Assembly (NCBI GenBank): GCA_026393115.1 | Contig: JAPLAU010000014.1 | Coordinates: 1 to 64,000, forward strand | Source of the DNA: Actinomycetota bacterium | GTDB lineage: Bacteria; Actinomycetota; Actinomycetes; S36-B12; CAIYMF01 | Direction: 5' to 3' | DNA length: 64,000 bases | Shown here: one piece after another, positions 49,493-50,879 of the stretch | Position numbering within the stretch: position 1 is the stretch's first letter | How the letters are laid out: each line of letters opens with the position of its first letter | Notes under the pieces: model-generated | Database searches by the model: none | Seen by the model: the letters and a program-made list of their open reading frames with translations, nothing else | What the model was told of the DNA's origin: nothing | Position numbers and translations under genes: made by a program

Positions 49493-49512
49493 ATGTATTC
49501 AGCAGCGTACAT
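49493..49512. promoter_or_regulatory. Dyad ATGTA-N10-TACAT, copy A
   Basis: The 20-bp element ATGTATTCAGCAGCGTACAT has 5-bp arms and a 10-bp spacer. It ends 73 bp before the first paralogue's ATG. The same element stands at exactly the same distance before the second paralogue, which argues for a conserved protein-binding site. Confidence 0.6.
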
Positions 49513-49542
49513 TTCGCCCGGCGCCGATTAGCCCGGCTAGTA

Positions 49543-49566
49543 CGTTCACGTCATCTGCAGTGAACG
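49543..49566. promoter_or_regulatory. Inverted repeat CGTTCAC-N10-GTGAACG, copy A
   Basis: Seven-bp arms flank a 10-nt spacer just upstream of the ribosome site. The left arm overlaps TACGTT (49541-49546), a possible -10. In copy B the arms are kept (6 bp) but the spacer differs, so it may be an operator or an RNA hairpin. Confidence 0.55.
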
Positions 49567-49592
49567 CTGACCGAGGGACACCTGATGACCGA
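49561..49592 (+). repeat. 32-nt leader/start block, copy A (identical to 50331-50362)
   Basis: This block covers the second dyad arm, the ribosome site GAGGG, the ATG and the first codons of the paralogue. It is identical to copy B over all 32 nt, while adjacent coding sequence differs at synonymous sites. Confidence 0.9.
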
Positions 49593-50178
49593 GACACCGC
49601 CCGAGCCCAGAATGGGACCAGAAACGCCTGCCACCTCGACTCGGTCGACCCGTCGCACTCGATGCCGGTGGTCTGCAGTGGCTGCGGTGGTCGCTCTGGT
49701 GCTCATCGGGTCTATGGCTGGTTATTCGGCCGGTCGCGGGCAGTCGGGCGCGCAAGCGGGAGCGCTGACCAGTGCCGGGGCGAACGCGTCGATCATCAGC
49801 GGTTCCGCCACGACACTGAGGAACAATCAAATCATGTTCTTCGGATTTGGTGCGACGGCCGCCTCAACGAATGAGGCCCTGGTCCAAATGACAATGCCGA
49901 CGGCAGGAACCATCAGCAACCTGTGCATTAGTTTGTCGTTGGCTCCAGCAAATGGAACAGCGCTGTGGCAGTTTACTCTGCGCAAGAACCACGACTCAAC
50001 CTCAACTCCCGTTACCGTCCTGATCGGCGGCCCGAACCCAGTGGCATATGAGTGCGACCAATCCAACAAGCTCACCTTCGATGCCGGCGATCAGTTGTCG
50101 ATCTCCTCATCGCCGCAAGGCTCGCCGGCGGACACCCCATCGGTCACTTGGACCGCCGCCTTCGTCCCCAGCGCCTAA
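49585..50178 (+). CDS. Type II membrane protein with beta-sandwich-like ectodomain (paralogue A)
   Basis: The 197-aa protein has a short cytoplasmic tail ending RSTRRTR, one membrane helix (about 30-48) and an extracytoplasmic domain. The ectodomain from about residue 85 alternates hydrophobic residues and contains TAGTISNLCISLSLAP, WQFTLRKNHDS and FDAGDQLSISSSPQGSP, a pattern seen in jelly-roll or phage-tail-like sandwiches; two Cys could pair. No lipobox. I do not recognise a named family. It shares tail, leader and upstream dyads with the next gene. ATG follows GAGGG. Confidence 0.75.
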   Translation: MTETPPEPRMGPETPATSTRSTRRTRCRWSAVAAVVALVLIGSMAGYSAGRGQSGAQAGALTSAGANASIISGSATTLRNNQIMFFGFGATAASTNEALVQMTMPTAGTISNLCISLSLAPANGTALWQFTLRKNHDSTSTPVTVLIGGPNPVAYECDQSNKLTFDAGDQLSISSSPQGSPADTPSVTWTAAFVPSA

Positions 50179-50262
50179 CGCCCACCGATTCCCACAGCCG
50201 AGAAAGGTAGCGACAGCACATCGAGGAATAGCGCAAGCGTGTGAGGGCGTGCTCAGGGCACC

Positions 50263-50282
50263 ATGTACCTCCTGAGGTACAT
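50263..50282. promoter_or_regulatory. Dyad ATGTACCTC-CT-GAGGTACAT, copy B
   Basis: A perfect 20-bp inverted repeat with 9-bp arms and a 2-bp centre. The outer ATGTA...TACAT matches copy A, and the element ends 73 bp before the ATG, identical to copy A. Confidence 0.65.
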
Positions 50283-50312
50283 TTCCGCAGGCACCGGTCA
50301 CCGAGCGCGTTA

Positions 50313-50336
50313 CGTTCACCACACAAGCCATGAACG
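50313..50336. promoter_or_regulatory. Inverted repeat CGTTCA-N12-TGAACG, copy B
   Basis: The arms match those of copy A; the 12-nt spacer (CCACACAAGCCA) does not. The left arm again sits within TACGTTCAC at 50311-50319. An ATG at 50330 opens a 14-codon frame that overlaps the real start out of frame. Confidence 0.55.
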
Positions 50337-50362
50337 CTGACCGAGGGACACCTGATGACCGA
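50331..50362 (+). repeat. 32-nt leader/start block, copy B (identical to 49561-49592)
   Basis: Identical to copy A over 32 nt and offset by exactly 770 bp. Confidence 0.9.
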
Positions 50363-50879
50363 CACGCAGCCTGACACTGGCATGGGGTCTGAGAAACCAG
50401 TCACGACCTCGCGATCGACTCGCCGCACCCGACGCATCGGCATCATCGGTGCGCTCGCCGGTGTGGTCGTTATAGGTGCCGTACTCATCGGAGTGATGAC
50501 AGGTGGCTCTCGATCAGGGGCAATCGCGTCGTCGGCCACGCAAGTCTCGATTACCGCGACCTGTTCGACAATCCCAGGTGTGGAGAGAAGTTCATTCAAT
50601 CCGACGATACCGGCCAAGTCGAAGATCACCTTCACCGCTGACGCCTCAACTCACTTCGACGCAGCAACCACGGTGCAAGTGTGGTTGCGCACCTCCGTCA
50701 ATCCCGACGCGTACTCGGTTCAGACAACGGAAACGAACGCGGTTACTGCGACGGCAGGCGCCTACGCAGGGGATATCACATTCGTACACGCCGCTAGTGG
50801 CCAGACTTATGCAGTCTCGTGGGGAGGCGCGAATCACGTTGCCGACCCCTACTACTCCCTCGCGTGGTGCGCAAAGTAG
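50355..50879 (+). CDS. Type II membrane protein, paralogue B
   Basis: The 174-aa protein has the same layout as the upstream gene: MTDTQPDTGMGSEKP tail, RSTRRTR, one membrane helix (about 26-48) and an ectodomain. The ectodomain is unrelated or highly diverged: TCSTIPGVERSS, ITFTADASTHFDAATTVQVWL, and a C-terminal SLAWCAK, with Cys near each end suggesting a disulfide. No catalytic motif or lipobox is visible. Function unknown. The stop abuts the convergent SGNH gene without a gap. Confidence 0.72.
   Translation: MTDTQPDTGMGSEKPVTTSRSTRRTRRIGIIGALAGVVVIGAVLIGVMTGGSRSGAIASSATQVSITATCSTIPGVERSSFNPTIPAKSKITFTADASTHFDAATTVQVWLRTSVNPDAYSVQTTETNAVTATAGAYAGDITFVHAASGQTYAVSWGGANHVADPYYSLAWCAK

Follow-up and report, generated by a model that had tools for sequence, protein, structure and literature searches.

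Two tandem genes with a shared control region

The window, i.e., the whole stretch of 64,000 nt that was analyzed, belongs to a genome of 3.51 Mb (G000) and carries two tandem genes on the forward strand, as are all features of the pair given below. Gene 1 (49585..50178) encodes a protein of 197 aa, with a leader (residues 1-60) that includes a hydrophobic helix at approximately residues 31-49 and matches the leader profile of the family described below with E=1.6e-21. Gene 2 (50355..50879) encodes 174 aa, with a leader of residues 1-56, a helix at approximately residues 30-48, and an ectodomain with two Cys. The ATGTA-N10-TACAT dyad of gene 1 (49493..49512), one of three exact matches in the genome and a putative activator operator, and its counterpart ATGTACCTCCTGAGGTACAT in front of gene 2 (50263..50282), in which nine of ten pairs are self-complementary as judged by eye, each begin 92 nt upstream of the corresponding ATG (49585 and 50355) without any indel, the two copies being 770 bp apart. 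TACGTT hexamers of the type TANNNT (49541..49546 and 50311..50316) represent the predicted -10 elements, and that of gene 1 starts 38 nt past the dyad centre. A second inverted repeat, CGTTCAC-N10-GTGAACG (49543..49566), overlaps the predicted -10 and the predicted transcription start of gene 1, and a 32-nt block common to both copies (49561..49592 and 50331..50362) comprises the ribosome binding site and the start codon. An arylsulfotransferase-type gene (PF14269; 46747-48723, reverse strand) adjoins the locus; in the sister genome G001, the DNA bearing this gene is missing from the corresponding position.

Between -92 and -1, both control regions are identical at 62 of 92 positions, and the identity clusters in the dyad arms, in TACGTTCAC, and in the last 24 nt before the ATG. 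The dyad arms agree at 5/5 and 5/5 positions and the N10 core at 1/10; the 28 nt past the dyad agree at 14/28, TACGTTCAC at 9/9, the subsequent 8 nt at 3/8, and the region -27..-1 at 25/27, with complete identity over 32 nt from -24 to +8. A gap-free control region copied at an offset of 770 bp, with similar elements and diverged spacers, had been the core of the original prediction and is confirmed; the shared layout of the pair is real and above chance. Constant offsets of the elements to the ATG hold for the window pair, but not for the wider family, where the rigid spacing is that between dyad and TANNNT. The assumption that every conserved element is functional is not supported in this form, since the second inverted repeat is not retained family-wide.

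Leader family and exported domains

The leader comprises approximately 56 residues, i.e., a polar/basic tail, the motif RSTRRTRR, one hydrophobic helix, and then GARSGA or a similar sequence. In the 17 members examined, the best 19-residue stretch shows a mean hydropathy of 2.0-2.9 and is directly preceded by 4-6 Arg/Lys, and no second hydrophobic stretch above 1.1 occurs. The leader end reads G-x-[RQ]-[SA]-G in 16 aligned sequences. Among these 16 leaders a Gly-Gly pair just before the motif was seen by eye in C2, C10b, and C97 only, and a conserved Gly-Gly cleavage site is absent as a family feature. Leader identity amounts to 50-80% among paralogues of the genus and to 37-52% for pairs with gene 1. 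Due to the fact that Pfam and NCBIfam matches to the leader are weak and generic (best NCBIfam E 3.2e-5), family members would be annotated as unrelated hypothetical proteins, even though their leader and promoter identify them as a single set. TIGR03793 (NHLP) is not among the ten families matched by 16 leaders at NCBIfam E<=0.5.

As anticipated in the original prediction, the window pair is accompanied by further members: the leader profile gave eight strong matches in G000 and five in G001, and a wider leader profile at least 23 matches with E<=1e-7 in nine of the 166 genomes of the order, this number being a lower bound because no more than 38 first-look candidates were scored in any genome. 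In the open-licence PMC literature searched, neither the leader family nor the palindrome regulon presented below is described in titles or the beginnings of abstracts. A phage or viral origin was considered and rejected, as gene 1 has no match in phage records and no relative of the leader was found in viral contigs. In a scan of 21 loci, three family members from three genomes proved to be close neighbours of a tRNA gene, at approximately 40-90 bp from its 3' end (L004:5460-5533, L080:1733-1807, and L082:1951-2024), possibly indicating an insertion hot spot.

The ectodomains of paralogues share 2-39% identity, mostly below 30%, the highest values being those of C2 with C23 and C12, which have an Lcl_C-like part in common. 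A Pfam scan of 14 members matched C2 to Lcl_C above the cut-off (4.6e-11) and C23 (6.9e-4) and the member of G044 (1.1e-5) below it; the other 11 members had nothing over the cut-off. Several types can be distinguished: Lcl_C domains, small domains that have a Cys close to each end, and the gene-1 type. No relative of the gene-1 ectodomain was found in the other 165 of the 166 genomes of the order, and the gene-2 ectodomain has an orthologue of 97% identity in G001. AlphaFold models of gene 1 alone (pLDDT 46) and of gene 2 with nine relatives (pLDDT 40) consist of strands and one helix and are too poor to assign a fold. The original prediction of a cassette in which promoter and membrane anchor are kept and the surface domain is swapped agrees with these data as far as the retained front part and the mostly different ectodomains are concerned. 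Among the four orthologous pairs of G000 and G001, three have ectodomains of 94-100% identity and the fourth of 74%; thus, swapping is not fast.

Family promoter in the genus of the window

Exact copies of ATGTA-N10-TACAT occur at three places in G000, compared to none for the reversed control, and all three begin 92 nt upstream of a leader-family gene. The third copy is situated on contig 31, 92 nt before the ATG of a gene whose product begins MTETSSDNDMGPDTPASPARSTRRTRR. With up to two mismatches the dyad is found at control level (343 vs 334 in G000 and 350 vs 347 in G001); hence, the dyad alone is informative only if exact, and only exact or profile matches were used. An exact dyad precedes five of the 13 members in the genus (3/8 in G000 and 2/5 in G001), or six if C6 with one mismatch is counted, and the other members retain chiefly the right half. 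Another exact dyad in G001 (C306, L041:1501-1520) was rejected as a family promoter due to an antitoxin-like start, recognized by eye, just downstream; located beside a PIN-like ORF, it is probably a toxin-antitoxin operator unrelated to the leader family.

In 11 of 13 members the dyad, or first element (TACATT or the near forms TACATC, TACGTT, and AACATC), is spaced by 33 nt from a TANNNT hexamer, either TACGTT or TACTGT, which in turn is situated 43 to 46 nt before the start codon (in case of C6 counted from its GTG). From spacing and conservation, we infer that TANNNT is the -10 element of an activator-dependent promoter. Family promoters lack a sigma-70-like -35/-10 pair, a weak negative result given that 0.6 would be expected by chance, and an Rfam scan returned nothing relevant. 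Among the 11 hexamer-bearing members, the second inverted repeat forms 6-7 of 7 pairs in five and 2-5 of 7 in the other six, and is for that reason not counted as a family element; with up to two mismatches its pattern also matches places outside the family. GTACAT-N28-TACGTT occurs exactly at six places in G000 and G001, every one a family promoter. With up to one mismatch there are eight places vs ten for the reversed control, so that only exact matches stand out.

A promoter profile (R1), built from ten family promoters, was searched over G000, G001, and G010, with 150 of approximately 3,000 first-look candidates scored per genome. Within this sample it recovered seven of eight family genes in G000 and four of five in G001 with E<=6.6e-11, ten of these 11 matches being training sequences of R1 and the eleventh the orthologous C142 copy; the orthologues C28 and C343 are without the promoter. 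Among the candidates scored in G000 and G001, nothing outside the leader family was found below E=0.003; the next match (E=0.0036) is the C241 palindrome on the other strand, followed by matches with E>=0.13. The leader gene of G010 gave no R1 match.

Palindrome regulon in genus g9

In genus g9, which belongs to another family of the order, all seven leader genes found are preceded by a different palindrome, ACCGTG-N4-CACGGT (with one mismatch in G120), whose centre is located 70-83 nt before the ATG. Except for one, these genes have a TANNNT exactly 30 nt past the palindrome centre. No exact ACCGTG palindrome was found at the leader genes of G010, G062, and G063 (L065, L080, and L082). With up to one mismatch the palindrome is enriched over the control in G021 (21 vs 7), G044 (19 vs 6), and G120 (27 vs 3), and is near control level in G122, G051, G062, and G063 (12 vs 10, 6 vs 5, 7 vs 5, and 7 vs 9, the order of the pairs not being tied to that of the genomes). 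Exact palindromes number at least 15 in G021, 16 in G120, and 4 in G044 among the matches listed. For 35 non-redundant exact dyads, taken from stretches chosen around listed exact sites, a TANNNT is present on one or both sides at offset 30 in 13 and absent in 22; offset 31 is represented six times and every other offset at most four times.

Genes downstream of g9 dyads encode NHLP-like precursors, short Gly-Gly peptides, an NHLM-type HlyD protein, LanM, amino-acid-binding lipoproteins, a PrsW-type protease, and a NarL-type regulator with its kinase (loci L117, L120, L126, L129, L130, L132, and L134 of G021 and G120). The NHLP and HlyD matches are below, and the LanM match is above, the curated cut-offs, and some dyads are not followed by a convincing gene. 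The NHLP-type exporter cluster of G000 (L194) bears none of these dyads.

The original prediction had assigned the window pair to a regulon of exported proteins under one regulator. The idea of a regulon holds in two forms. In the genus of the window it is the narrower one: further members carry the promoter, in G001 as well as in G000, but among the candidates scored below E=0.003 R1 retrieved the leader family only. In g9 the regulon is wider, with genes for peptides as well as for exported proteins, but uses another palindrome.

Evidence for recombination inside the promoter-leader module

At the window locus, G001 carries one gene with syntenic flanks, which combines the promoter of copy 1 with the body of copy 2. 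Of its 44 informative sites between -116 and -1, 40 agree with gene 1 and two with gene 2; between +1 and +30, all nine agree with gene 2 and none with gene 1. From +30 to +66 its leader is a mosaic of 15 sites, of which eight are gene-1-like, four gene-2-like, and three neither. According to this pattern, the two-gene and the one-gene state differ by a switch located in or next to the identical 32-nt block; the difference may go back to a loss in G001 or to a gain in G000.

G122 of genus g9 contains two tandem members 607 bp apart that are identical over 273 bp, from 2 bp before ACCGTG through the leader into the coding region. Synonymous changes number 0 in 41.7 sites of the leader vs 17 in 62.2 sites of the ectodomain (Fisher p=7e-5), corresponding to a dS of 0 in the leader and to a dS of 0.34 and a dN of 0.28 in the ectodomains. 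This pattern is consistent with a module that underwent gene conversion or was copied anew. G001 and G122 thus provide direct support for recombination within the promoter-leader module at two independent loci, albeit the genomes are contig sets, and an assembly error is possible for both the G001 hybrid and the G122 identity. Of the predicted swap, the exchange of promoter and leader was found in the G001 hybrid, but not the movement of one ectodomain between leaders.

The orthologues C2 and C142 (L053:3813-4436 and L058:877-1500) encode an identical protein within 5.3 kb of surroundings that are 94.7% identical. One synonymous change is present in the leader and none in the ectodomain, possibly due to a recent exchange or conversion.

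Proposed mechanism and alternative explanations

We consider it probable that the window pair is part of a dispersed multigene family that encodes small single-pass exported proteins and is organized around a common, recombining front module with a dyad-activated promoter. The module would consist of the operator dyad, the -10 hexamer, a short leader RNA with the ribosome binding site, and the leader of approximately 56 residues, and 11 of the 13 family genes in the genus have their own promoter copy. Most likely, a palindrome-binding activator at the dyad would stand in for a -35 element. This reading is suggested by the fixed distance of 38 nt between dyad centre and -10; spacing and conservation are observed, and the activator and the transcription start are predicted from them. 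Classical activator sites are centred at -42 or -61. The window dyad, whose hexamer begins 38 nt past its centre compared to the 30 nt expected for a centre near -42, would be centred near -50, so that activation is less certain here than in g9. Based on the helix and the basic residues preceding it, the leader is predicted to insert the protein with its N-terminus inside and its C-terminus outside, and the ectodomain would be displayed or freed after cleavage. Recombination between the front modules of paralogues would keep promoter and leader alike and reassort the bodies downstream, and the presumed benefit is the co-expression of varied surface or secreted domains under one signal.

The origin of the window pair by an ordinary old tandem duplication, with purifying selection on the elements, drift of the ectodomains, and no special role of recombination, would account for two adjacent genes of similar size, and conserved islands like those in the window would result if only promoter and anchor were under selection. 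This explanation is already weakened by the G122 pair, with its zero synonymous divergence in the leader beside an ectodomain dS of 0.34, and by the hybrid gene in G001; moreover, copies on other contigs carry the same module, and we regard it as improbable. Promoter-proximal palindromes are often repressor sites, and the second repeat, overlapping the -10 in five of 11 members, could be one. A repressor function of the window dyad itself is nevertheless unlikely, as it is situated upstream of the predicted -10 at a fixed spacing and the analogous g9 dyads show an activator-type geometry. Much less probable still is that the dyad is a terminus of some mobile or recombining element, although the identical block of G122 begins at the outer edge of the dyad and three family members have a tRNA 3' end no more than 90 bp away: its distance to the -10-like hexamer is fixed in both genera, and in g9 many dyads are found at promoter distance upstream of unrelated genes. 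A more serious alternative concerns the leader, which could be a long cleaved secretion signal, with products that are secreted rather than anchored. The conserved small residues past the helix (GARSGA) and the small two-Cys domains are in line with this. Signal peptidase I cuts nearer to the helix, however, and the conserved motif ends approximately 10 residues past it; secretion is accordingly a real possibility, but anchoring is preferred.

A candidate regulator is the NarL-type response regulator encoded at G000:C30:63365, an orthologue of the g9 regulator. Orthologues with 51-61% identity to the G021 protein are present in G000, G001, G044, and G120; in the other five genomes searched, the best matches are 29-32% identical or there is none. 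Since the enrichment of the g9 dyad tracks the regulator (21 vs 7, 19 vs 6, and 27 vs 3 where it is present, near control level where it is absent), and its gene is preceded by the dyad in three of three g9 genomes (an exact copy in G120, copies with one mismatch in G021 and G044), one might expect it to control the window dyad as well. It is, however, an exact g9-type palindrome, and not ATGTA-N10-TACAT, that adjoins the regulator operon in G000 and G001, for which reason this candidate was demoted to an alternative. Furthermore, the recognition-helix region is, by eye, much alike, no dyad was seen upstream of the regulator gene in G000 and G001, and the distance from dyad to hexamer differs (38 nt in the window vs 30 nt in g9). 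G122 has the g9 palindrome before three leader genes, yet no regulator orthologue was found in this genome, which is 90% complete. Control of the window dyad by this regulator appears improbable, to about the same degree as the simple duplication. The g9-type palindrome beside the operon rather suggests that the regulator kept its palindrome and that the window family came under a different one, i.e., a putative regulatory rewiring between lineages.

The g9 palindromes near the two-component operon have 11-bp arms (L153:11404-11419 in G000 and L154:6365-6380 in G001), and the one in G001 precedes a gene for a Nif11-domain peptide (L154:6430-6705). Over 546 aa, the two-component kinases of these two lineages, represented by G000 and G021, share 33% identity.

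Returning to the recombining front module, it is tempting to speculate that operator, promoter, and leader are inherited as one unit, which is homogenized by recombination, onto which exported domains are grafted, and whose control is rewired between lineages, a broader reading to which we give somewhat less than an even chance. Rewiring would have placed the module within a two-component regulon of peptide natural products in g9 and under a private palindrome in the genus of the window. If true, uncultured actinobacteria would possess a co-regulated, reassorting set of surface proteins.

Comparison with known systems

Class II activator promoters of NarL/LuxR-type (GerE) regulons have a dyad centre at about -42. 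The g9 dyads, centred 30 nt before TANNNT and thus at approximately -42 from the predicted start, resemble these, as does the presence of NarL-type regulator and kinase genes beside them; judged by co-occurrence and gene neighbourhood, the regulator is a candidate for binding the g9 palindrome. Unlike in g9, the window dyad has another sequence and a centre 8 nt further upstream.

In surface protein families with antigenic variation, a conserved expression sequence is combined with variable domains and kept by gene conversion. The window family is similar in its conserved 5' region and leader, its differing exposed domains, and its signature of gene conversion, a homogenized 5' module with a divergent exposed domain being found in G122 (dS 0 vs 0.34) and in the G001 hybrid. 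It differs in that no single expression site was seen, the promoter being present in 11 of 13 copies of the genus, in that there is no host or immune context, and in that ectodomain turnover is slow in three of four sister-species pairs. With the cases of G001 and G122, the cassette idea can be put to the test in additional genomes from these lineages.

NHLP/Nif11 RiPP precursors form families with multiple copies per genome, in which a conserved leader is followed by a hypervariable part (PMC2887384). The window family is alike in being multicopy, with a conserved leader and a variable part downstream of it, and in g9 NHLP-like precursors and the leader family of the window are found behind the same palindrome. 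Unlike these precursors, family members contain a hydrophobic helix and domain-size parts instead of short core peptides, and they lack a conserved Gly-Gly as well as any match to NHLP or Nif11. Through the g9 regulon, NHLP/lanthipeptide-type genes and these exported proteins are both linked to a NarL-type two-component system, suggesting a possible role of the surface proteins in peptide-based cell-cell interactions. Lcl_C (PF07603) domains occur in surface proteins; in the family of the window, Lcl_C, clear in C2 and weaker in C23 and G044, is one of several ectodomain types.
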